IMG/VR virus record: IMGVR_UViG_3300029957_000008
Span: 1-64,000 of that record
Strand: one strand, 5' to 3'
Length of the DNA stretch: 64,000 bases
Source of the DNA: a virus
The position numbers and the translations under genes were made by a program. How positions within the stretch are numbered: the first letter of the stretch is position 1; every line of letters starts with the position of its first letter. The notes beneath the pieces are model-generated. The model made no database searches. It saw nothing but the letters and a program-made list of their open reading frames with translations, and had not been told where the DNA came from. This document shows, in pieces, positions 5,918-31,174 of the stretch.

Positions 5918-6133
5918 TTACTCCTTGACGTCGACGTCGAATAACCCAGACTCAATAAGTGTGATCATCTCGTGCGCCATATCAAATTCAAATTTAGCCA
6001 CTTCCATATCGATAGGATTTTTTGATTTCTTACTTGCGAGGAGATCTTCGCTTCCAAGCTCGGCGGCTTCCCTCCAAAAGGCCAGCATGAACTCCTTGTC
6101 AATCTGCTTCTTTACTTCCGTCTTTGTTTCCAT
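5918..6133 (-). CDS. small acidic protein, tandem paralogue 1
   Basis: A 71-residue protein whose C-terminal FEFDMAHEMITLIESGLFD matches the equivalent stretch of the 5703-5915 protein. Its start overlaps the 3' end of the polymerase C-part gene by 35 bases, suggesting translational coupling. Function unknown. Confidence 0.6.
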   Translation of the reverse strand: METKTEVKKQIDKEFMLAFWREAAELGSEDLLASKKSKNPIDMEVAKFEFDMAHEMITLIESGLFDVDVKE

Positions 6134-8444
6134 CTTTAGTCTCTTCCTTTGTGTTTAATGGTTCTCTAATTACCTTCAGTTCCCTAACTGCAAAATCGGT
6201 TCTACCCGAACTCTTGTTAATGATCATCGCTACGATGCTGCCCGCCTCAACCCTCTTTAGCTCCCCCGGCAACGATCCATCTCTACCCGGCCAGTAAACC
6301 ATCTCCTTTTTAATGCCGTCCACCTCGACAAAGAACTTGCAAGCCTCTTTCTCCTTGCCCGGCCCATAGTTAAAGTACTTCTTGCGCTTGTCGCTGTCCC
6401 ACGGCTCTACATATGCAATTATACCACAACGGTAGTTCTTTTCAACAAATCCTTCACTGGTTTCTAATTCTTCTAGTCGTTTCCCACCCACCACCGGGTC
6501 AAAGGTGGATTCCTCCTTGCCGCTGTCATAGGAATAAGCCCGGTACTTGAACCTAAGAGCCCTACCTTCTACTACTAAATACTCGGGCAAGCCTATCTGC
6601 ATTACTAATGGCCGAAGGTCCGCCCCAAAGGGCGGGAGAACGGCCTTTTTAGCTTGGTATCGCCCCAAGGCATCCAATGAGGGCAACTTCTTACTAGGCT
6701 TGGCATACTTAACGCCCTCAAGGGCGTGCAGTTCCTTCATCGTCGCATGGTACTCTTCAATGCACGCCGAAAGAGTCTTGTCAGGCCCAAAGAAAGCCTC
6801 CATCGACCCAGCATAAAGCATGTTGTGGATCTTGCCAATATCTAGGGCGCTACGCCCCCAAGCAGTAACTTTTTTGGTAGTGCCGTCTTCTTCAGTTTTA
6901 GTCTTTTCTACTAGATTGGACTTCCTGTGATTAATAATGGCTTGACAGAATGACTTTAAGTCGGCATACGGCGCTGAATGCGCAAGCTGATTGTGCGCCG
7001 CTTCGCCCATGCCAAACAACATGGAAATGGGCGCACGGATTTTGTCACCTTCAATCTCCCAGTCACCCTTGGACAACTTGATGTCAGGGAGAAGAACTAG
7101 GTTACCACAGTACTTCCAGAAGCGTGTGTCAATCTCCTCTTTGGTGGCTGAGCGGAGGACCGCACACCACCATTCTAGAGGGTAGTAGTGCTTGAGCCAC
7201 AGGCAGGCGTAGGAGAGGGTAACATACGAGACCGCGTGGCTCTTGTTGAAGGAATATTTTGCAAAGGTGATAATTGAGTCCCACACAGCTTGTGCGGACT
7301 CCTTACCGACCTTAGACGTTGCTCTTTCAATGAAGAAAGTGTACGCCTTTTCCATCGCGGCCAGCTTTTTCTTGCCCGCGTTGCCTCGGAACTCCTCTGC
7401 TTCGGCAAGAGTGCATCCTGTCAGCTCCTGATACACCCTCATTAGAGACTCTTGGTAGATCATCAACCCCTTGGTCTCAGGGCAGAGGGCGTCCATCTCT
7501 TTGATGATGTCTGGACTGGGAGCTAGTCCTTTGGCCCGTCGGGAGTACTCGACGAGGACGCTGTGCTTCTGTGTTGGGCTATCAAAATTAGTAACTAGGT
7601 AGTCTAGTGGGCCGGGGCGGTCCAAAGCTGTAAAGATGGCCATGTCACTAATACTGTTGATAATTCCATTGAAGTACTTTAGACACTGCCTGGCCGAATT
7701 CGAGTCGAACTGGAAGACCGTTTCGACCTTACCACTACAAAGGTCGGCGAACACCTCAGGTTCTTGAGGGAGATCCCAAATGTCGTGAAGGGCTCCTTCC
7801 TTACCCGGAACAATCCTAAGTCCTGGAACCAGCGACCCATTGAGCTTCTGATCCTGTGGTTTACCGCCAAGATGGCGGCTTTGGATAATCTTGATGGCTA
7901 TTTGAACATCCTTGACGGCATTTACGGTCAGGAAGTCCATCTTAATGGCCCCAACGCTCTCACATTCAGGGCCAGTAAAGGAGAGAGCTTTTACACCTCC
8001 GACCTGGGTCGTTGGAATGAATTCATCTATGGGTTCGTTACTAATCACATATCCGGCCGCATGACGGCCGCGACTGCGCCACAAGGAAAGGGAGTCTTTA
8101 ACTACCTCCCACTGCTTGGGGTACTTGTAGATGTATTCCTGGAGATTCTTGTCAATCTCGATACTGCCAGGGACTTCGCCTTCAGGAGATGTGTAACCCA
8201 TGATGAACCGCTCATCACTGAGTCCTTGAGGGGGGACGAGAAAGCCCTTGCACATCCTTTCAATATCGGGCGGGACACTACCCATTACGGCTCTAGCTAC
8301 GTCGCGTACGGCGTTTTTGAGCCGTAGGGTGTTGATGGTACCGATCTGAGCGAAGTGGTCGGGGAAGCGATTCTGAAGCCAACCCTCCCAGTGGGGCTTG
8401 AGTGTTCCGGTCTTGGAGTTGTTTGTGATTTCGGTGAATTTCAT
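6099..8444 (-). CDS. DNA polymerase III alpha subunit, C-terminal part
   Basis: A 781-residue protein that starts in the middle of the bacterial C-family replicase. Residues 27-52 hold the HFAQIGTINTLRLKNAVRDV block (the FGTM region), followed by the third catalytic aspartate in GAIKMDFLTV near residue 168, fingers motifs (ALDRPGPLDYL, MIYQESLMRV, FRGNAGKKK, YSFNKSHAVSY) and C-terminal helix-hairpin-helix and OB-like regions. It lacks the PHP domain and the first two catalytic aspartates, which are in the adjacent upstream gene. The genes are one base apart (TAG-g-ATG), so synthesis is coupled and the products presumably assemble. Confidence 0.85.
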   Translation of the reverse strand: MKFTEITNNSKTGTLKPHWEGWLQNRFPDHFAQIGTINTLRLKNAVRDVARAVMGSVPPDIERMCKGFLVPPQGLSDERFIMGYTSPEGEVPGSIEIDKNLQEYIYKYPKQWEVVKDSLSLWRSRGRHAAGYVISNEPIDEFIPTTQVGGVKALSFTGPECESVGAIKMDFLTVNAVKDVQIAIKIIQSRHLGGKPQDQKLNGSLVPGLRIVPGKEGALHDIWDLPQEPEVFADLCSGKVETVFQFDSNSARQCLKYFNGIINSISDMAIFTALDRPGPLDYLVTNFDSPTQKHSVLVEYSRRAKGLAPSPDIIKEMDALCPETKGLMIYQESLMRVYQELTGCTLAEAEEFRGNAGKKKLAAMEKAYTFFIERATSKVGKESAQAVWDSIITFAKYSFNKSHAVSYVTLSYACLWLKHYYPLEWWCAVLRSATKEEIDTRFWKYCGNLVLLPDIKLSKGDWEIEGDKIRAPISMLFGMGEAAHNQLAHSAPYADLKSFCQAIINHRKSNLVEKTKTEEDGTTKKVTAWGRSALDIGKIHNMLYAGSMEAFFGPDKTLSACIEEYHATMKELHALEGVKYAKPSKKLPSLDALGRYQAKKAVLPPFGADLRPLVMQIGLPEYLVVEGRALRFKYRAYSYDSGKEESTFDPVVGGKRLEELETSEGFVEKNYRCGIIAYVEPWDSDKRKKYFNYGPGKEKEACKFFVEVDGIKKEMVYWPGRDGSLPGELKRVEAGSIVAMIINKSSGRTDFAVRELKVIREPLNTKEETKDGNKDGSKEAD

Positions 8445-8445
8445 C

Positions 8446-10209
8446 CTACCACCACGCCTTAAAGTCGGCCTGCTTAGCTATCGCGTCCTTGACTGGCATA
8501 ATCCCTTGGTCTGTTTCAATTTTGAAGTCTTCAGGGAGCACATGAAGAGTCCCATCCTCGCCTTTCACCTCAATCACGTTTGTATCGTATCCCACTAGCA
8601 GGTCTCTGTGTGGAAAATCTAAATCGACGTCTGGCAGGTGGTTGGATTCAATACGGGTTTTGGTCAAAAACCTCTCAAAGGACAGGTTTTCCTTAATTGG
8701 GTCCAAGTGCGTAATTCCTAAAAGATAAGAAAGAAGGCAACCGGCTGCGCTGCCCCTGGCCACATTCATCAACTGATCTTGGTTTTGGTATAGATTGCAA
8801 ACTTCATAGGCTAAATGAAAATAAGGCAAGAGATCAATTGTCCCGTTCCGGTGAATGGTGTCGATTTCTTTCTTGAGCCTTGCCAGATAAACCGGGTCGT
8901 TCTTCATTCGCCCATGTTTGTTGATCAGTTCTTTGGTGTAGGCCAAGGAGTCCTTTGGAAAGAACTTTGTCGGTAGCTGCGGGGTGTTTTCGAACGTAAA
9001 GCCCTTGAACCCCTCCAACCAGGCGTAGGAGTTGTCTACCCAGCCCTCAAACTCCTTCTCCGAGGTGTTGTGAACTTTCTTGAAATGGGCGTAGGCCTCA
9101 TCGCCCGAAAAACGGTGATAGGAATTGTAGAAACGCCAGTCGCCCATCTGAGCTAGACGAACGTCTTGAACGGCCTTGTACTTAGCGTCAGAAAAATGAC
9201 TGTCGTCGCTCACTAGAATCGGCACATTGTACTTCTGAGCAAGGCCCATAACAAACACGTTAGCGCCGTATTGCAAATCCCCTCCGGGTGCCCACGGCGC
9301 ACATTCGTTCTGAATGAATCCTTCTACTTTCTTGACTGCCAGAATCTTCAAAGGCTTCTCAAAGTCCGTCCACACTCTGTAATTGCAAACAGACACTAGA
9401 AACTTGTGCTTGTTAGGGTCGTACTTGTCCGCTAGCGCTTCGGCCGTTGACGTGCCGGCGTCGGTCCTAATGGTCTTGTCAAAGTAATACCGAATGGTCT
9501 CCTTTGTTCCGTCGTCCTTCTCAACATCAATGAATACGCCCTTGGTGAAGTTATGGCTGCAGACATGTGGAAATACCTCAACAAAAAAACGATCTTTGAA
9601 CAAGCAATGGAGTCGCTCAAAATACGCCGTGGCAATGCCGACCTTTATGTTCTTGGGTACTTCAGGATTAAGAAGGTGTCTGGACACCATCCCGATGACG
9701 CACCCAGAACCAATTGTTACATTGTGCGCGGCCAACTCTTCAATCTCATCCCATCCCCAAATCGGCTTGCGCTCAGAACCATGTTGTTCTGCCCTTGCGT
9801 CAGCTTTTGAAAGCAATCGAACGCCTACCTTATACGCCTTAAAATCACGAAACCCAATAGTAGCATGAAGGTACTTCAAGTGTTCCACAAAGCTACCGTC
9901 TGGATGGTCTTTGGCCCATTTTTCAGCATCAGATCCGCGAGGAACCGTTTTGGTTTTCTGGATGCCGAACCTAGTAAGGATGGGGCAGTCGTCACTTCTC
10001 ACGTACGCCTCAATTCCAATCACGGGCGTCAGGCTATTCTTCTTAGCCAACTCATAAGTCTTATACGCCGCAGACAAAGACCCGTGGTCGGTACAAGTCA
10101 GAGCCCCTGTCCCTAGTTCAACTTCCTTCTTAGCAAAGGCTTCGGGTGTGGATGCCGAGTCCAGACTTTGGGGGTGGCAATGTGGGGTCGTAAAGTTTCC
10201 GTAAGACAT
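8446..10209 (-). CDS. DNA polymerase III alpha subunit, N-terminal part
   Basis: A 587-residue protein with an N-terminal PHP domain (HCHPQSLDSAS near residue 9, LTCTDHGSL, VIGIEAYV) and the first half of the palm: ARGSAAGCLLSYLLG near residue 483 and the two-aspartate motif PDVDLDF near 526. Instead of continuing into the FGTM block it runs into about 50 residues (from VGYDTNVIEVKGEDG to FKAWW) not normally present, then stops. The rest of the polymerase is the next gene. No conserved intein start residue is visible at the break, so protein splicing is unlikely. Confidence 0.85.
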   Translation of the reverse strand: MSYGNFTTPHCHPQSLDSASTPEAFAKKEVELGTGALTCTDHGSLSAAYKTYELAKKNSLTPVIGIEAYVRSDDCPILTRFGIQKTKTVPRGSDAEKWAKDHPDGSFVEHLKYLHATIGFRDFKAYKVGVRLLSKADARAEQHGSERKPIWGWDEIEELAAHNVTIGSGCVIGMVSRHLLNPEVPKNIKVGIATAYFERLHCLFKDRFFVEVFPHVCSHNFTKGVFIDVEKDDGTKETIRYYFDKTIRTDAGTSTAEALADKYDPNKHKFLVSVCNYRVWTDFEKPLKILAVKKVEGFIQNECAPWAPGGDLQYGANVFVMGLAQKYNVPILVSDDSHFSDAKYKAVQDVRLAQMGDWRFYNSYHRFSGDEAYAHFKKVHNTSEKEFEGWVDNSYAWLEGFKGFTFENTPQLPTKFFPKDSLAYTKELINKHGRMKNDPVYLARLKKEIDTIHRNGTIDLLPYFHLAYEVCNLYQNQDQLMNVARGSAAGCLLSYLLGITHLDPIKENLSFERFLTKTRIESNHLPDVDLDFPHRDLLVGYDTNVIEVKGEDGTLHVLPEDFKIETDQGIMPVKDAIAKQADFKAWW

Positions 10210-17930: not shown

Positions 17931-20813
17931 TTAACGAATTGGGCAGGCTCCGGCACATTCTCCCCCGTCTACCATGTCCCCCTCTGAAATATCTTCTATC
18001 TCTACGGGTCTTACCTTTGCAGATAATTTTTCGTACTGCTCCTTAGAAATTTTCTCTTTGGGAATCTGCTTAAATCCGTGGTTAGAGTATTTTAGGAAGC
18101 TAACTGTCTTAATGGTATCTAGATTATTCTTTAGCCATTCCTGCAGCTTCGGGATATCGGAATCGTTATAATAAACGGTCGTGCTAATTGATTGATCGGC
18201 CCAATGTTTTTGGGCCATCTGGACGGCCTCCAGTTGCTTCCAGGTATCAAACCCCTCATCTGCCGTAGGGACACCCTCAGGGGTTTCTACATAAAAGTCA
18301 GCAACGATAGTGTCAGGATCTGGAGTCCCGTCTAGCCGAATTTGAGGTTCGAGATGGTGTCCTGCGTCAATAAGCTTTTGAACAAGGGCGTCGTTACTTG
18401 CGATTCGAATGCGTTGAATAAAGTAACGACTAAAAGCGGGATGAATGCCTTCACAAGGAACATCCCACGCCTTACTGGTCGTGCCACTTGGCTTCACGAC
18501 GGTTGTACGAATACTCTCCGGAATCCCCAGCTCTTTTGCATAGTTAATATTTTCGTCTTGAATAGCGGCATACGCTCGATCTAGAACATCTGGATTGAAC
18601 AAATCGGGGCGCATAAGACAGCCTGTGATCCCGGTACCAATACGGCGGTTCCGCCCAATAATCTCATTGCTCTGGGGGTAATAGTAATCATCGCAAGTAA
18701 CTCGTTTGCCCCAACGATGCATCAATCTCGCAGCTTCCTCAAATTCGTTAGCATCGTTCAAAGCAGCCAGGTTAATATCCTGCAGGTTACAGGGTTCACC
18801 ACCACCGCCCTGACCGGGTTTGCCAGACTCACCTGACATCTCTCCACAGTTGGCAACCAGTAGGCCGTCGGTCCAATAAGCATGATCGGGATCGTCTACT
18901 GTAATTGAGTATACCTGTTCTACAGAAACATCGGTAACAGACTTGATTTCAAACGTTTTCTTTGATCTTAGGCTCTTTTTAGTTACATAATCTATCCCTT
19001 TCAATAGCTTGTCGTTTTTATATTTCTGAATGAATCCAATTAGCTGATTAAACAAAAGCAGGCTCGATAGACCACTAATATTAAGATCGTACGCTTCCTT
19101 ACATATATAGGTGCCATTCTTGAACTTTACAGGATGCTCCTTGTTTGTAGAATAATAAGAAGACAGTCCCAATGAAGACAACATAGACTGAATACGAATA
19201 AGAGAGGGTTTACATGTTAACTTTAGATTGATTCTGTTTCTAATAATCTCTCCAGAGACAGAACGGATTACAGAACCATTAGCCGAATAGAGCCCCCTTA
19301 AGAATCCACACACAGATTCTGGTCTTCCAAATAAATAATCGTCAGGAAGTAGCCGGGTAGGGATATGGCTATCTGGAACGTATAAAGAGTTTACATACCA
19401 TTCTGTTGCGCTAGAGTGAGCCCCAATAAGATGAGATATTTCACTTGTGTGATAATCTCCATCATCTTTTCCAATACAAAGCATTACCTGCTTTGTTTCC
19501 TTGTGATAGAAGCCATCTCCAAAAACTAACCCATGCATAATATCTCTAGGGTTTATATCCTTTTTACCAAAACCAAACTTCCCAAGCCCTCCGGCAATGT
19601 CGATGGTCTTTGCTTGACCTACCTCTGTCTTTATTCCTCTGGATAGAATCCTATGGTTTTCAGTCCCATAGAAGACTCCGGCTGTTGTAGCGTATGCTTT
19701 AACTGACTTAACTCCAGTCTCTTGTTTGTTAATAACCGTTGTCCACTTCTTTCCGGACCAAATAAGATCCCCAACGGAGACATCATTAATTGTTCGGATC
19801 CCGCTTGGCGTTAGAACTCTAGCCCAACCTGGTTGACAAGGATTAACACAAACAGACTCGTCATCCTTTAACTCACCCATGCGGCCATACTTATTCAGGT
19901 TCTTCATATTGACGATCCCGAATGGCTCCCCGGCCTCATATGTCTTCCAGAAAGCTGGCCGGAGATCATGTTCGGAATCGGAACAATTGACACTAAAATT
20001 AGCCATTGCTCGTTGTGTGGGGATGGGTCCAAGGTCCCAACGCTTGGCCTTAAGGAACTCCTTATCGTGAGCGTCACCGAGAATCAATATCGCACTTCTG
20101 CGTACATTTCCTGACACCACCATTTCTCCGACACAACAAAGGACATCCGCACAGTCAATTGGACGCAGCTTACGACCTTGGCGAGTCATTAAAATAGAAC
20201 AAATCTTCTCCACCATTCTTACTAATGGCCGGGGGCCGCTGCTAACACCACCAAAGCCACGAATCGGCTCGCCGGCAGTACGAATGCAAATTGTACTATA
20301 TGTAAATCCCTTTCCAGTAACAAACCAAGCTTCTAGGACTCGTTGAAGTAGTTTACACCACCCCTCACGAGAGTCAGGAACGATATAGTCAGCATCTTTA
20401 GTAAGCTTGTGGATAATGCTAACTTCTTTCTTCACCCTAGGAAGCTTATCAGAATACTTAGCCTCCACGGTCATGCCTACCCCGCCACCAGTCATAAGGT
20501 AACCTTGGGCCACAACGAAGTTCATCCAGTCGTCTGCAGCTAAGGTCCAGCAATTTACGAGACCTAGACCACCCAACTTAGCTTGAGCGTCAGTGCCACT
20601 AAACCACCAACCTCGTCCACCAGGACCAGCCTTGCGCTCTGATAGGAAATACTTTAGTCGTGAGATCTCTTGTTCTGAAACATTGTGTCCCTTTACATTT
20701 CCTGCGACTACTCTCTCTACAACATCGCTGAAAGACTCAATACCGCCAGTAGGGCGGGGACGCTTGTATGTTCTGGTAAATACTACGTTTGCTAGATTAC
20801 TGAATGGACGCAA
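17931..20813 (-). CDS. nrdJ: class II (B12-dependent) ribonucleotide reductase with intein
   Basis: A 960-residue precursor; without its intein (residues 326-655) the enzyme is about 630 residues. It makes deoxyribonucleotides using adenosylcobalamin. Visible features: GWWFSGT and GLVNCWTL (first redox Cys, residue 88), the radical site NP-CGE interrupted by the intein, the second Cys in GGGEPCNLQDINL, VVKPSGTTSK, and the C-terminal relay CAGACPIR. This pattern fits monomeric triphosphate-type class II enzymes. TTG start at 20813 with AGGAG seven bases upstream. The endonuclease VII gene lies immediately upstream. Confidence 0.88.
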   Translation of the reverse strand: MRPFSNLANVVFTRTYKRPRPTGGIESFSDVVERVVAGNVKGHNVSEQEISRLKYFLSERKAGPGGRGWWFSGTDAQAKLGGLGLVNCWTLAADDWMNFVVAQGYLMTGGGVGMTVEAKYSDKLPRVKKEVSIIHKLTKDADYIVPDSREGWCKLLQRVLEAWFVTGKGFTYSTICIRTAGEPIRGFGGVSSGPRPLVRMVEKICSILMTRQGRKLRPIDCADVLCCVGEMVVSGNVRRSAILILGDAHDKEFLKAKRWDLGPIPTQRAMANFSVNCSDSEHDLRPAFWKTYEAGEPFGIVNMKNLNKYGRMGELKDDESVCVNPCQPGWARVLTPSGIRTINDVSVGDLIWSGKKWTTVINKQETGVKSVKAYATTAGVFYGTENHRILSRGIKTEVGQAKTIDIAGGLGKFGFGKKDINPRDIMHGLVFGDGFYHKETKQVMLCIGKDDGDYHTSEISHLIGAHSSATEWYVNSLYVPDSHIPTRLLPDDYLFGRPESVCGFLRGLYSANGSVIRSVSGEIIRNRINLKLTCKPSLIRIQSMLSSLGLSSYYSTNKEHPVKFKNGTYICKEAYDLNISGLSSLLLFNQLIGFIQKYKNDKLLKGIDYVTKKSLRSKKTFEIKSVTDVSVEQVYSITVDDPDHAYWTDGLLVANCGEMSGESGKPGQGGGGEPCNLQDINLAALNDANEFEEAARLMHRWGKRVTCDDYYYPQSNEIIGRNRRIGTGITGCLMRPDLFNPDVLDRAYAAIQDENINYAKELGIPESIRTTVVKPSGTTSKAWDVPCEGIHPAFSRYFIQRIRIASNDALVQKLIDAGHHLEPQIRLDGTPDPDTIVADFYVETPEGVPTADEGFDTWKQLEAVQMAQKHWADQSISTTVYYNDSDIPKLQEWLKNNLDTIKTVSFLKYSNHGFKQIPKEKISKEQYEKLSAKVRPVEIEDISEGDMVDGGECAGACPIR
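18849..19838 (-). mobile_element. 330-residue intein with LAGLIDADG endonuclease
   Basis: Begins with Cys (CQPGWARVLTPSG), has a splicing block B GTENHRIL, and ends YSITVDDPDHAYW...VAN followed by extein Cys. Two dodecapeptide-like motifs, LVFGDGFYH and LRGLYSANGSV, indicate a LAGLIDADG homing endonuclease. The penultimate residue is Ala rather than the usual His. Insertion is between NP and CGE of the reductase, so the +1 cysteine is also the catalytic radical cysteine: activity requires splicing. Confidence 0.88.
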
Positions 20814-20817
20814 TATA

Positions 20818-21180
20818 CTACTCCTTATTATTCAACACCGACGCCGGCATACTCTTCAAATCAATTTCGTGTCTGCTCTCTGCATACTTCTCAAGGTATT
20901 TAACGATGTTCTTGGCCTTCTCAACAGTGATACCTACAGGGAGGTACATTAGATTACATCTAACACAGCAAATTCCACGTACGAACCCGGCACGACTAGC
21001 GGGGCTCATCTTCTTGAATGACCTTACGTGCTCATGGTCTGTCGCCCACTTATTGCTCTCTGGAAACTTCCCGCAGATAGGGCAGATGCACCCTTGGCTT
21101 TTGAATATCTCCAGCCACTTTTCCTGTGTGATTCCGTATCGCTTTAGACTCTGTGGCTTGGGAGGTTTTGCATCAGGCAT
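20818..21180 (-). CDS. recombination endonuclease VII-like nuclease
   Basis: A 120-residue protein with the endonuclease VII pattern: CPICG, then ATDHEHV, FVRGICCVRCN. Family members resolve branched DNA (T4 gp49) or act as homing enzymes. The short length and close position upstream of the intein-bearing reductase fit either. ATG start; the stop is five bases before the reductase TTG. Confidence 0.75.
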   Translation of the reverse strand: MPDAKPPKPQSLKRYGITQEKWLEIFKSQGCICPICGKFPESNKWATDHEHVRSFKKMSPASRAGFVRGICCVRCNLMYLPVGITVEKAKNIVKYLEKYAESRHEIDLKSMPASVLNNKE

Positions 21181-22658: not shown

Positions 22659-23219
22659 CTATTGAGTCAATTCAGGTATCTGTTCGGATGTCTTATAGTA
22701 GCCTTTGGTTTTCTTCTCTTCAATTGGGAAGACGATATTCTGTATGTAAACTCTCAGTTTTTCTATGATCTCATTCTCTTGCGCTGACGGACTGTGCTTT
22801 TCTAGATAGTCTAGAAGTAAAAGTGTCCTATCGGGCTGTTTATTCAGCATTCCATCTAGGGCATTACAGAATATGCATAAAACGCCACGGATTAACCCTG
22901 TAGTGTGACTATGATCAAGACACATCTCCTTATGTGTTAGTTCTTTACCACAACACTCACACTTACCGTTACATTTGATAATAGCCGCCCTAACGGCCCA
23001 TACTGGAACCTTAAGACGCTGTGCTCTACCGTAGTCCCTTCTAGCGTCTGGATTTTGTTTCTGTCTTTCAGTGGCCCGCCTAATGTTTTCTTCTCTATTT
23101 TTTAAGTACCGTAATTTATGCTGTTCTTTTTGACAAAGAACACAAGCTCCTCCTTTATTCCTGAGAGGATCTATGTGCCCTCTTGAACAGGCTTTCTTTC
23201 TATAGCCAAGAGAACTCAC
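22659..23219 (-). CDS. second endonuclease VII-like nuclease
   Basis: A 186-residue protein. The N-terminal 40 residues form a zinc-ribbon-like module (CSRGH...CVLC), the middle is basic, and the C-terminal half has CECCGKEL, CLDHSHTTGLIRGVLC and FCNALDGML, the full endonuclease VII signature. It may be a Holliday-junction resolvase for the UvsX pathway or a mobile endonuclease; the extra zinc module resembles those of the phage's HNH genes and favours the latter. It overlaps the next upstream gene by one base. Confidence 0.78.
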   Translation of the reverse strand: MSSLGYRKKACSRGHIDPLRNKGGACVLCQKEQHKLRYLKNREENIRRATERQKQNPDARRDYGRAQRLKVPVWAVRAAIIKCNGKCECCGKELTHKEMCLDHSHTTGLIRGVLCIFCNALDGMLNKQPDRTLLLLDYLEKHSPSAQENEIIEKLRVYIQNIVFPIEEKKTKGYYKTSEQIPELTQ

Positions 23220-24796: not shown

Positions 24797-25062
24797 AGTA
24801 GAAGCCCCTTCGGCCCGGTACCCACATACGCAAAAGTCTTGGCATCAAAATACACAGAATCTATCTTGTTGTCCTTGACAGGCTCCTTGCGATACAACTC
24901 ATAGACTGCACGACCCCAAAGTGAATCGAGTGGTCCGCGTGCCCCATAGTTTTCCATGGTGTCGCCGTCGATCTCCAGATTGCCCTTGTAAAAGTAGCAA
25001 CCGTTAGGTCGTTTGCTTTCGTAAGCCTTCTTTAACTGCTGGGCTGTTGTAATTTGCATCAT
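24793..25062 (-). CDS. hypothetical protein
   Basis: An 89-residue soluble protein (ITTAQQLKKAYES start, FDAKTFAYVGTGPKG end). It overlaps the SbcC-like gene stop by four bases, so it is translationally coupled to it. Not recognised. Confidence 0.6.
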   Translation of the reverse strand: MMQITTAQQLKKAYESKRPNGCYFYKGNLEIDGDTMENYGARGPLDSLWGRAVYELYRKEPVKDNKIDSVYFDAKTFAYVGTGPKGLLL

Positions 25063-27269
25063 ACTATCCTACTAATCCCATCAACCTGCTCGACTTCAAT
25101 CACCTGATTGAATAAGTTGCAAAACTCCGAGCTGTGGTCAACTACTAATACCAAACGTTCGCCTACGACGCTTTGAAGCATCTCGATACAGCTTTCCTTG
25201 GCTACGCTATCTAATCCGTGCAAGCTCTCATCCAGCATTAAGAAGTTTGGATAAACACCACGACGAGATCCTACAACATTACTAACGGCCAAGTCAACAC
25301 CTAATTCAACCGCTACCTGCATACCACCAGAAACGCCCGACTTAAAGGAAACCTTCCTGCCACGGTTGTAAATAACTGGTGTGATCCTGCTGCTTACATT
25401 ACCACTTGAGGCGGCTACCTTCTCGGTCTCGAACTCAATGCTCAGGTGACGTACGTTGGCTACTTGACTAAGAATGTCGTTCGCCTGAGCAGAAATCTCA
25501 GTAAGGACATCACTAAATATGGCCCCCAAAAAGCCGTTACGGCCTACTAGGGCCACGATATCTGACTGTAGGTTGTATTCTACTTGTTTCTCCTGGTAGT
25601 TCTTGGTCGCTTTCTCCATGGCCGATACGGCCATATTAACTACTCCTTGGCGCTCCTTCTTAACGGCTTCCAGCTGCTTGAAATTGCTGATATTCTGCTC
25701 AAGGGCTCTAATCTGTAGCGAAGTCTCTTCCTTTTCCTTACACAGCTTGTTGTAGCTCTCTTTTTCGGCCATAATGGCCGTATTGAGCTTGTTACTAAAC
25801 TCAGTTTTGATAGCTTTCTCATCCTCAAACAGAGAAGTCAATCTCAACGACTTCTCGGCTTTAAAGGCCGTTTCGGCCTGGTCAAGCCGCTTTGTAACTT
25901 CGCCAATTTCAACAACCAAAGTAACCCCCATAGGATGTGGCTCGGGATCCTTGATTGCTTCCAGGGCTGACTTCTTCGAATTAAGCTCCAGGACTCCCCG
26001 TGCCTTCAGGGCGTCCGTCTCTTGCTTCATCGCAAGCTGCAGGGCTTCCAGCTCTTTCTTCTTTACTGCCAGTTTGGCCAACTTCTCTTCCTGAACCTTC
26101 TGGGCCTCAACCGTCTTCACCAGGTCAATCTGTGCCTTGTCCCAGATACGCTCGCACCTAGGGCACAGGCTGTCCCTCAGTCTTGCTTCTTCGCTCTTAA
26201 GCCTGTTGAGTTCTGCTGCAGCAGGTACTAGGCTGGAGATCTCTAGATTGACCTTGCTAATATCTGCGTTGAACTTGGCCTGTAGGGCATTCAGTTGCTC
26301 CCTGAAGTAAGCCTTCAGTTTGGTAATTTCATTCTCTAGGTCGGAGCGTAGCTTCTGGACTACAAGTTTTTGGTCGTTGTCATACTGACGACACTTGTCC
26401 AGCTTTTCCTTGAGTTCGGTAAGGGTGGCTTTGTAGGTGTTGATTTCCTCTGGCTTGTCTAGGTTGTTAACCGCCTGAATTTTACATTTGACTACCGATA
26501 GTGCGTCCTCTAGCTCTTCGTTGCTGTCGTGCCTTAAGTTACTAATGTTGTCGTCAATCTGCTTGATGGAAGTCTCAAGGTAGGTAACTGTGGTCTGAAG
26601 TGTCTTGATTTGGCTTTTTACAGTTTCGGACTCCTCAGGATTGACAACAATTTCATTTAGCTTCTCAAGGGCTATCTTGTAGACTTGCTCCTTGGTCTCT
26701 AGATCTCTCTTGAGAAACGAAATATCGCCATCCAAGGCCGATACGGCCTTACTGGCGAGGTCTGACACCTTTTCGAACTTTTCAAGGTCTAGGAGCTTGG
26801 TAAGGAAGGACTTCTTCTCAGGGTCCGACATAGACAGGAAGAGCCCTGGCTTCCTTTGGGGTCTGTAGGTAACAAGGGCGCGTAGCTCAGCATCCATTTC
26901 AAAGATGCGGTCAAGCTGGGCTTCGGCAGTCTTGCCCTTAAGGGAGTCTGTTAGGTTGCCACCTTTTACAGTTAATCCTTTCTTCCTGCCAATAGAGAAG
27001 ATTCCGTCTTTTGTTTCTAGCTTAGACTGAACATCCGGTGGATCGTCCGTATACCACGACTGTAATTCAGTCGCAGCAAACGGGCAACCACCGTAGATGT
27101 GGGAGATAGTATTCAGGAAGAAGGTTTTACCAGCTCCTGAGCCGCCGCCTGTCTCATTGACTTTACCCTTAATCAGGAGAAGACCTGACTGGGGGAGATC
27201 TACCTTGTGAGATCCTACGAAAGGACCAAAGTTTGCAAAGGATAGTTCTTGTAGTTTTAACCAATTCAC
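25059..27269 (-). CDS. SbcC/Rad50-type recombination ATPase (gp46-like)
   Basis: A 736-residue SMC-like protein that, with an SbcD-type nuclease, processes DNA ends for recombination. Walker A GGGSGAGKT (residues 41-49); a long coiled coil broken by a CPRC zinc hook near residue 368; signature SGVSGGMQ near 643; Walker B FLMLDESLHGLD near 680; and a final VVDHSSEF switch. The nuclease partner is 10 kb away on the other strand (37785). GTG start at 27269. Four GGCC-N5-GGCC palindromes fall inside this gene. Confidence 0.88.
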   Translation of the reverse strand: MNWLKLQELSFANFGPFVGSHKVDLPQSGLLLIKGKVNETGGGSGAGKTFFLNTISHIYGGCPFAATELQSWYTDDPPDVQSKLETKDGIFSIGRKKGLTVKGGNLTDSLKGKTAEAQLDRIFEMDAELRALVTYRPQRKPGLFLSMSDPEKKSFLTKLLDLEKFEKVSDLASKAVSALDGDISFLKRDLETKEQVYKIALEKLNEIVVNPEESETVKSQIKTLQTTVTYLETSIKQIDDNISNLRHDSNEELEDALSVVKCKIQAVNNLDKPEEINTYKATLTELKEKLDKCRQYDNDQKLVVQKLRSDLENEITKLKAYFREQLNALQAKFNADISKVNLEISSLVPAAAELNRLKSEEARLRDSLCPRCERIWDKAQIDLVKTVEAQKVQEEKLAKLAVKKKELEALQLAMKQETDALKARGVLELNSKKSALEAIKDPEPHPMGVTLVVEIGEVTKRLDQAETAFKAEKSLRLTSLFEDEKAIKTEFSNKLNTAIMAEKESYNKLCKEKEETSLQIRALEQNISNFKQLEAVKKERQGVVNMAVSAMEKATKNYQEKQVEYNLQSDIVALVGRNGFLGAIFSDVLTEISAQANDILSQVANVRHLSIEFETEKVAASSGNVSSRITPVIYNRGRKVSFKSGVSGGMQVAVELGVDLAVSNVVGSRRGVYPNFLMLDESLHGLDSVAKESCIEMLQSVVGERLVLVVDHSSEFCNLFNQVIEVEQVDGISRIV
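25620..26748. repeat. cluster of four GGCC-N5-GGCC interrupted palindromes
   Basis: Copies at 25620-25632, 25767-25779, 25866-25878 and 26736-26748, all inside the sbcC-like gene; two extend to perfect 17-bp palindromes. Fifteen further copies that I found elsewhere start at 12246, 16347, 29271, 31771, 38168, 41617, 42371, 42443, 46662, 47378, 50520, 51762, 62591, 62708 and 63898. Confidence 0.85.
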
Positions 27270-29326: not shown

Positions 29327-31174
29327 CTACGCCCTCTCGTTTGCTGGGTTCCAACCGGAATCCCTAATAAAGCTATTATAGTCCGCCCCTTCGATTTTGT
29401 CCACTTCTTTATCACGAGGATAAACAACACACCCACCAAGAGTTCCCAGCAAGGTGGCAATACTAATGCTGTTTTTCAAAGCTTCCCGGACTGCAGGAAG
29501 AGAATCGAGAATGCCGTTTTCGATGGCATTAACTACCTCGTTCTTACTAATATCCCGGACCATTACGTTTTCGAGCTTGCCGTTCTTCCGGAACGTGAAG
29601 TCCTTCGTCAAGGATTCGTAGCTGGTATCCAACCCGGCATTTTCGTACAGGGTGATGATGGGCATCCAAAGGGCCAGCTTAATAATTTCCGCCTGAACAG
29701 GATCGTTGTCATCCAGAGTATTAATAAGCTTTGCAAGCATCCAGCCACCCCCAATCAAAGCGCCGTGTTTAAGGGCGCCTCGAACCGCGCAAACCGCGTC
29801 TTCCGCCCTATCTCTGCGCTCTTTAAGCTCTCCATTGGAACTACCAATAACCTTTAGCTTCGCAATGCCGCCAGTAAGCTTCGCCACCCGTTCATTGGTA
29901 AGGTCTGCCTCAAGCTTGCTTTCCGAGCTGGCTAGTTGCTGTTTAACTACTTCCAATCGCTGCAGGAGTAGTTCTTCGTCGGCGAAACCAACAACGCTGC
30001 TGCGGTACCGGCCACACTCGTAGGTGGTAACCCCTGCAGGAACCCAAATAGGAGTTCCGGCATCATTTTCCTCGATTTTGATGTTACCAAAGTCCGTCTT
30101 GTAGCTCCCCTCGCCATCATCGGGAACCATCTCGATTGTCTCAAGCGGACGGGTGACTTGGTCTAGGACCGTAGCACCTGTGACTGCGGCAAGGTCGTCC
30201 AGGAAGTTCTTCTGGCCATTCATCAACGGAGACTGAGGAACAACTAGAGGAAAAACATTGATCTGTTCAGGATTACCAGTGATAAAGGCAAACTGAGCAA
30301 GGACCGACTCCGAGAAGCCCGTAGCTACGACAACTAGGTTGTGGCTAGTAATCCAGCCATCCTTCCAGCCGTCAGCTACTTTAACCAAAGCGGGCAGGAT
30401 ATTCTGGAAATCGGTAATTCGACCAAGGTACAACAAAAACAACGGCTTGTCAGCGACAATTCGCTGGGTGGTGTTGTCGTTAATAAACGTAGGGAAGAAC
30501 TTCGCACAGCTCTCCTCGTATCCCATAGCAATCGGGAAGCCCTTGATGGACTCGACTTCGTAGGAAGTAGGGCCAGAGCTTTCGATAATGGTCACATTTC
30601 CATCATCGCCACAAATATCAAAGCACTTCATGACGGCATCACCTAGTTCGGTGTCACCGTTGCCTGAAAGAGCGGCAACTGAATGCAGCAGCTTACGGCC
30701 AGTCTCTGTTCCTAGGGAGCAGGTTATGGCCGATTTGTCAATCAAGGGCTCCAGGACGTTCTTGTAGACATTTTGGATGGTCTTAATAACCTTGATGGGC
30801 GGTACGCCCGGATTCTTCTTGCAGTATTCTAGGGTGTACCTGACAAATGCCTCAGCCAGAATGGTAGCTGTTGTGGTTCCATCGCCGGCCTCTACAGCGG
30901 TCCTTACGGACGCATCTCGGGCCGCTTCTAGGATGTTCTGGTCTACTGCATCGGGGAACCCAAGGGAGCGGAAGACTGTAACTCCGTCTTTGGTAACCAT
31001 CGGAGCCAGATCCATCTCCTGACGTTCAATCAGGACGGGGTGGCCACCAGGGCCGAGTGTGCCTCCAACGATTTTAGCGATTTTCTCCATCGTGGAGAGA
31101 ATGTGGTTCTCTAACTTTTCAGAACGTGGTAAAACGGTCTTAAAGGCTGCGTGTGGCTTAACGGTAGATGCCAA
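29327..31174 (-). CDS. phage GroEL-like chaperonin
   Basis: A 615-residue group I chaperonin, longer than bacterial GroEL (about 548). ATP-site motifs are present: GGTLGPGGHPVLI (residue 37 on), DGVTVFRS, and GDGTTTAT at 97; the equatorial C-terminal GGG-like motif is ALIGGGWMLAKL. The apical domain is divergent and there is no Gly-Met tail. Phage chaperonins of this sort are known from some large phages and are proposed to fold capsid proteins. TTG start with AGGAG eight bases upstream; own promoter at 31200-31228. A possible partner is the 37432 product. Confidence 0.85.
   Translation of the reverse strand: MASTVKPHAAFKTVLPRSEKLENHILSTMEKIAKIVGGTLGPGGHPVLIERQEMDLAPMVTKDGVTVFRSLGFPDAVDQNILEAARDASVRTAVEAGDGTTTATILAEAFVRYTLEYCKKNPGVPPIKVIKTIQNVYKNVLEPLIDKSAITCSLGTETGRKLLHSVAALSGNGDTELGDAVMKCFDICGDDGNVTIIESSGPTSYEVESIKGFPIAMGYEESCAKFFPTFINDNTTQRIVADKPLFLLYLGRITDFQNILPALVKVADGWKDGWITSHNLVVVATGFSESVLAQFAFITGNPEQINVFPLVVPQSPLMNGQKNFLDDLAAVTGATVLDQVTRPLETIEMVPDDGEGSYKTDFGNIKIEENDAGTPIWVPAGVTTYECGRYRSSVVGFADEELLLQRLEVVKQQLASSESKLEADLTNERVAKLTGGIAKLKVIGSSNGELKERRDRAEDAVCAVRGALKHGALIGGGWMLAKLINTLDDNDPVQAEIIKLALWMPIITLYENAGLDTSYESLTKDFTFRKNGKLENVMVRDISKNEVVNAIENGILDSLPAVREALKNSISIATLLGTLGGCVVYPRDKEVDKIEGADYNSFIRDSGWNPANERA

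Follow-up and report, generated by a model that had tools for sequence, protein, structure and literature searches.

The RNR gene and its insert

The sequence analysed here, further referred to as the window, comprises 64,000 nucleotides (positions 1 to 64,000) of the IMG/VR virus record IMGVR_UViG_3300029957_000008. Its minus strand carries, at 17931–20813, an ORF of 960 amino acids with a TTG start, encoding an intein-containing class II (adenosylcobalamin-dependent, RTPR/NrdJ-type) ribonucleotide reductase (RNR). Extein alignments divide this ORF (all coordinates of its parts are likewise on the minus strand) into an N-extein of 325 codons, ending in ...VCVNP (19839–20813), an insert of 330 amino acids (18849–19838), and a C-extein of 305 codons plus the stop, beginning with CGEMSGES (17931–18848). 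Scanned as an interrupted protein, the ORF matched NCBIfam TIGR02505 (E=1.9e-97) with 327 bits against a curated cut-off of 340 bits, and a Pfam scan found RNR domains, including the B12-RNR insertion and barrel domains. As to the redox cysteines, C88 and C345 align with cysteines of the Lactobacillus leichmannii RTPR (PDB 1L1L), and a C-terminal cysteine pair is present in GECAGACPIR. By its sequence features, the host gene is an RTPR-type class II RNR. It is the sole ORF matching PF02867 in the 91,976-base virus record, and no second gene of an RNR large subunit was detected in that record, which may be a fragment.

The reading frame passes across both junctions (...ESVCVNP|CQPGWARVLTPSG...DGLLVAN|CGEMSGES...), with the insert in frame and no internal stop in the 960-residue ORF; when the bases of the insert were shuffled, the open frame was kept in none of 2000 trials. 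The GC content of the insert is 0.40 (0.376 in its endonuclease part) vs. about 0.475 in the exteins, which is near the lowest in the window, where 6 of 701 stretches are equally low. In a phmmer comparison of the joined exteins with the L. leichmannii RTPR, the alignment runs through the junction and NPCGE ends at residue 410, so that the +1 cysteine (codon 18846–18848; C326 after splicing) corresponds to C408, which we take, as established knowledge, to be the thiyl-radical cysteine. The sequence-only reading of this locus had put the junctions (NP|C...AN|CGE) at exactly this residue, which would double as the +1 nucleophile, and the alignment bears this out. The alternative junction NPC|Q... 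was rejected, as it would either leave no +1 nucleophile or yield the product NPCCGE.

Aligned with the intein-free RNRs of Maribacter phage Panino and ctYwJ313, the joined exteins (325 + 305 residues) show no gap at the junction. The survey for empty sites that the same reading had proposed yielded, besides these two phage RNRs, 80 IMG/VR loci crossing the site uninterrupted, the nearest with 64% extein identity; these loci are the best-scoring contiguous matches, a list that under-samples the intein-bearing relatives. An alignment of the 330 residues as a normal part of an RNR, named beforehand as the result that would overturn the intein, did not emerge, since the relatives are empty at the site. 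The empty-site alignments thus rule out an ordinary lineage-specific RNR domain.

Directly downstream of the intein junction, between the radical cysteine and the redox cysteine equivalent to C419, the RNR of the window has about 8 extra glycine-rich residues (the GESGKPGQGGGG stretch, 18810–18833) that are absent from its closest relatives; loops of comparable size are also present in the RNRs of two other members of the family described below (L013 and L014). Upstream of the RNR gene there are two endonuclease VII-type HNH genes (20818–21180 and 22659–23219, both on the minus strand), the nearer of which ends 5 bases before the TTG start; these are possibly free-standing homing endonucleases. 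The window also contains an SbcC-like gene (25059–27269) and a GroEL-like chaperonin ORF (29327–31174, minus strand; phrog_5725, E 3.5e-79). The gene of a DnaE-like DNA polymerase III alpha subunit (phrog_405) is split into two adjacent minus-strand ORFs (6099–8444 and 8446–10209) just past the conserved DVDLDFPHRD, where about 50 and 25 residues are left unexplained (YDTNVIEVKGEDGTLHV... and MKFTEITNNSKTG...). This break may possibly represent a remnant or split intein, or a frameshift; its likeness to intein block A was judged by eye only.

Intein motifs and predicted fold

The family alignment, the AF2 model and Foldseek divide the insert, with approximate boundaries, into Hint-N (residues 1–95), a LAGLIDADG domain (96–285) and Hint-C (295–330). 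Cys1 (19836–19838), the putative first nucleophile, is preceded by proline and is a cysteine in all 73 relatives compared; block B, TENH (19653–19664), provides Thr59 and His62, also present in 73 of 73. In block F, His319 (F:13; 18882–18884), the likely helper of asparagine cyclisation, is shared by 72 of the 73 relatives, while position 4 (18906–18908) is occupied by Ser311, replacing the aspartate of 66 relatives. Block G (18849–18854) consists of Ala329 and the C-terminal Asn330; the latter is invariant (73/73), and the penultimate position is Ser in 68 relatives, Ala in 3, Phe in one and Gly in one. Hence, the residues of a class 1 intein (Cys1, Thr59/His62, His319, Asn330, Cys+1) are all present, and the penultimate histidine, which is usual but not obligatory in class 1 inteins, is absent.

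The LAGLIDADG motif 1, MHGLVFGDG (19512–19538), retains the catalytic Asp108 (Asp in 70/73), whereas in motif 2, LRGLYSANG (19275–19301), Asn187 stands at the position of the catalytic acid. Asparagine is found here in 69 of the 73 relatives (Asp in 3, Leu in 1), a count partly biased because one of the search patterns demanded SA[ND]G; in the first set of 21 members, found with other patterns, 18 have asparagine. The two helices of a LAGLIDADG endonuclease are therefore in place, but a catalytic acid in both motifs is not (D108, N187), and the earlier view that both motifs are complete does not hold for the second one. As for the suggestion that the intein may still home, the missing acid speaks against it, while the asparagine as the family norm and the clear movement of the family between RNRs speak in its favour.

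The insert matches Pfam LAGLIDADG_3 (E 5.3e-7). Its AF2 model, built from 21 family members, has a mean pLDDT of 91.2 and a pTM of 0.89, with the LAGLIDADG helices predicted at residues 97–108 and 173–187. Among solved structures, Foldseek placed PI-SceI on top (E 2.1e-12), with gp41-1 and MchDnaB-1 also among the matches; among viral structures the best match was a Nodularia phage "intein-containing RnR". Judging by the sequence motifs and the predicted fold, the insert is a class 1 intein with a LAGLIDADG domain; coordinates, frame, intein residues and fold all agree with the 330-residue intein that had been proposed at 18849–19838 within a class II RNR.

Relatives at the radical-cysteine codon

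Protein scans of viral contigs raised the number of relatives from 2 to 21 (with a three-row profile) and then, once the profile had been extended to 21 rows, to 111 contigs, 80 of which were retained; one genome contig, from an Elusimicrobia MAG (L110), also matched. Removal of copies left 77 distinct inteins, nearly all from IMG/VR contigs. In all 76 readable N-junctions Cys1 is preceded by N-P (68), N-A (6), N-L or N-M, and in all 74 readable C-junctions asparagine is followed by Cys+1; none of the approximately 77 relatives found lies at another site or in another protein. The hosts include RTPR-type RNRs (the window, L010, L013–L015, L017, L020, L024, L026, L029 and L110), class II RNRs of the NrdJ_Z type (L009, L011, L012, L018, L019, L021, L023 and L027) and one class I enzyme, the NrdE-prime-type large subunit of L181 (TIGR02510, E=3.6e-175).

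Two members are natural mini-inteins lacking the endonuclease at the radical-cysteine site: L027 (4001–4411, 137 residues) and L028 (4001–4384, 128 residues), the latter with a penultimate Phe. In L003 (whose contig is shared with L025 and L186) both LAGLIDADG catalytic positions are lost and the branch is the longest. A second intein, located at different conserved sites, is present in the RNR of L010 (GNVRR|C...) as well as of L022 and L028 (before SRRGAG), with a penultimate His there. At the same site as the family, L007 (MW202615, 1501–4578) harbours a different, Ser1-type intein of 370 residues (NP|S...GN|CAE) with both LAGLIDADG acids present; the record is annotated merely as ribonucleoside-triphosphate reductase.

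A cellular origin, which the match in the Elusimicrobia MAG might have indicated, was rejected: the L110 contig bears phage-type genes (SbcC-like, dUTPase), and the MAG contains three further, uninterrupted RNR matches on other contigs, which makes L110 more likely a phage gene. Among 50,697 annotated phage records, intein matches at E<0.01 were obtained only in 9, all of them from Nodularia phages.

RNR inteins, including those of phages and those located near active sites, are already known (PMC3653736, PMC4071816, PMC8772380). New in the present work is that approximately 77 relatives share one codon, spread over two subfamilies of class II RNR and a single class I enzyme. Our literature search, which missed major intein papers, turned up no account of the viral family as such, and none of the allele names rir1-b, -g, -k, -l and -m used in the literature could be matched to the radical-cysteine codon.

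Movement between RNRs

Across 20 members, intein identity (0.30–0.69) is unrelated to extein identity (0.15–0.70; Mantel r 0.09, p 0.14). On average, intein identity amounts to 0.474 if both hosts belong to one RNR subfamily and to 0.463 if they do not, whereas extein identity falls from 0.31 to 0.20; L009 has 47% intein identity, yet the search scarcely picks up its exteins (E 0.02). The extein tree separates the two RNR subfamilies across one branch, whereas in the intein tree they are mixed, and constraining the RTPR hosts to one clade on the intein data was rejected (AU p 0.005). Vertical inheritance of the intein together with its RNR is thereby rejected for the family as a whole. For the window, L026 and L110 alone its rejection is marginal (AU p 0.044); the window and L026 are sisters by extein and may have inherited one intein copy in common. 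The tree of close RTPR relatives requires three switches between genes with the intein and genes with an empty site. The incongruent identities and trees, these three changes of state and the low GC content of the intein are jointly in favour of horizontal transfer into a conserved codon, and on these sequence comparisons the family appears to move between distant RNRs. Homing by the endonuclease would be the natural mechanism of such spread; conservation of the endonuclease domain (0.625) equals that of the splicing domain (0.61–0.64).

Discussion

The best explanation, and in our estimation a highly probable one, is that the window contains a class 1 LAGLIDADG intein, a selfish element spread by homing, whose virus-borne family has specificity for the radical-cysteine codon of RNR. 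The precursor would be translated whole, and Cys1, aided by Thr59/His62, would attack the Pro-Cys1 bond; the acyl group would then pass to the radical-cysteine thiol (Cys+1). Cyclisation of Asn330 would follow, probably with the aid of His319 given the penultimate Ala, and a last acyl shift would release the radical-cysteine thiol in the mature RNR. Histidine at F:13 is able to support asparagine cyclisation (PMC4031507). The intein would spread between viruses by homing and would persist because few stretches of RNR are as conserved as its site, from which it cannot be lost by sloppy deletion. Since the insert comes between the radical cysteine and the Asn-Pro that precedes it in the active-site loop, a working enzyme should need splicing; the site thus supports the earlier argument that a precursor with a split active site would be inactive. 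This dependence follows from the site itself and does not require a regulatory purpose: a regulatory role of the intein is possible but not needed.

Several features weigh against this explanation. The window copy departs from the family at block F (Ser for Asp) and at the penultimate position (Ala for Ser), and its terminal branch (2.32) is the fourth longest of 74, which makes slow splicing or decay conceivable; motif 2 lacks its catalytic acid. In a study of the NrdJ-1 intein, proline at position -1 disrupted the first splicing step and was called incompatible with splicing (PMC13123727); this proline, though, is native to most of the family, and its conservation suggests that the family inteins splice after it. 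The penultimate Ala, correctly read by the sequence-only reading, had been regarded there as a possible brake on C-terminal cleavage. We do not follow this part, for most of the family has Ser there (68/73), the penultimate histidine is missing from about 5% of functional inteins (PMC4031507) and frequently from those of phages, and a phage intein with a penultimate Gly splices well while His there slows its splicing (PMC5050341). By sequence, little separates the penultimate Ala from the Ser of the family, and the overlooked change of the window copy is the replacement of the block-F Asp by Ser, at a position (F:4) that affects the chemistry of the N-terminal splice site (PMC4031507).

Both departures leave room for a conditional intein, the idea of the sequence-only reading, in which slow or redox- or temperature-sensitive splicing would restrict active RNR, and with it the dNTP supply, to suitable conditions. 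The identity of the radical cysteine with the +1 nucleophile, on which RNR activity should hinge, is in line with this, as are Ser at the block-F Asp and the penultimate Ala, both positions being known to influence splicing steps (PMC4031507), and there is a precedent in the Aquifex aeolicus R2 intein, located between metal ligands, the presence of which raised iron loading (PMC8772380). Still, the rest of the family has other residues at the same site, so that the site alone is no argument for regulation, and the loss of the penultimate His is family-wide. Ser at block F4 occurs in 3 of 74 inteins (the window, L118 and L129), each time with Ala at G6, but three pairs are too few to establish covariation (sign test p 0.25; a single clade for all three is not rejected), which is suggestive only. 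On balance, we find conditional splicing unlikely. Somewhat less credit is due to the idea that the intein is degenerating, with splicing and/or the endonuclease being lost and the RNR perhaps partly or wholly inactive: the long end branch, Ser311, Asn187 and the 8 extra residues beside the radical cysteine, missing in near relatives, would agree with it, but the gene contains neither a stop nor a frameshift, both the core splicing residues and the active-site cysteines of the RNR have been retained, Asn187 is normal for the family, and L013 and L014 have loops of comparable length.

The endonuclease deserves separate consideration. With Asp in its first motif and Asn in its second, it could be a non-standard enzyme that nicks the DNA, or cuts only one strand efficiently, with homing making use of this; such a reading is a variant of the homing intein rather than its competitor, and we regard it as rather unlikely. 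The Asp108/Asn187 pair is kept in most relatives across a large divergence, the domain is under constraint and the horizontal spread is clear. On the other hand, catalytic acids have been described in both LAGLIDADG motifs, their loss goes together with inactivity in PhoVMA (PMC8966425), where both sites are lost, and the scan that yielded most relatives used an N-or-D motif pattern, biasing the counts. A broader proposal unites the two ideas: the family would read the radical-cysteine codon across RNR classes I and II with an Asp/Asn endonuclease (nicking or asymmetric homing), and the Ser-F/Ala-penultimate subset, the window copy included, would make splicing, and hence dNTP synthesis, conditional; taken as a whole, this is quite improbable. 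That the insert is after all a normal lineage-specific RNR domain and not an intein has a practically negligible probability, considering the homologous inserts at one codon in distant RNR subfamilies, the empty relatives, the intein and LAGLIDADG signatures and the predicted fold.

Returning to the homing intein as the preferred explanation, individual inteins have been known from RNR active sites, while here one family is traceable at one codon through approximately 77 RNRs, nearly all of them viral. Its occurrence across subfamilies whose exteins barely betray their kinship makes it a clean test of a homing element that follows a functional codon and not a gene lineage. If the family inteins splice, they do so after a -1 proline and mostly with a penultimate Ser, which may be of potential use in protein engineering, and they could show how inteins replace lost catalytic residues; the mini-inteins of L027 and L028 offer ready-made, endonuclease-free comparisons at the same site.

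Comparison with known systems

The RnR intein of Nodularia phage vB_NspS-kac65v162 and its relatives shares its site (NP|C...HN|CGE) with that of the window and likewise interrupts a phage RNR of class II, has the same LAGLIDADG Asp/Asn pair and is the best viral structure match; in contrast to the window copy, with which it shares about 28% identity, it has the penultimate His. Outside phages, the NCBIfam entry PRK08332 (vitamin B12-dependent RNR, 1684 residues), which we take to represent the Thermococcales RIR1 proteins, aligns by its profile positions 941–1240 with the family inteins, the alignment starting near residue 39 and continuing past their end into the C-extein; as compared by profile, the intein is homologous and the C-junction is shared. 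The RNR inteins of P. abyssi are reported to splice (Kerrigan 2009, as cited in PMC5050341).

The split intein NrdJ-1, of a class II RNR by its name, also splices at the radical-cysteine motif, but its junction (NPC|SEI) is located one residue downstream, so that the radical cysteine is the -1 residue and the nucleophile is Ser (PMC13123727). The A. aeolicus NrdB (R2) intein resembles that of the window in being a LAGLIDADG-type RNR intein between active-site residues, and it was shown to splice; it differs in residing in the small subunit R2, between metal ligands and not at the radical cysteine, and it demonstrates that an RNR intein can influence enzyme maturation (PMC8772380). PI-SceI, the yeast VMA intein and the top match among solved structures, has the same combination of Hint and a two-motif LAGLIDADG domain, but belongs to another host protein and is only 13% identical to the window intein. 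It possesses an additional region for DNA recognition, and each of its two LAGLIDADG motifs carries an acid.
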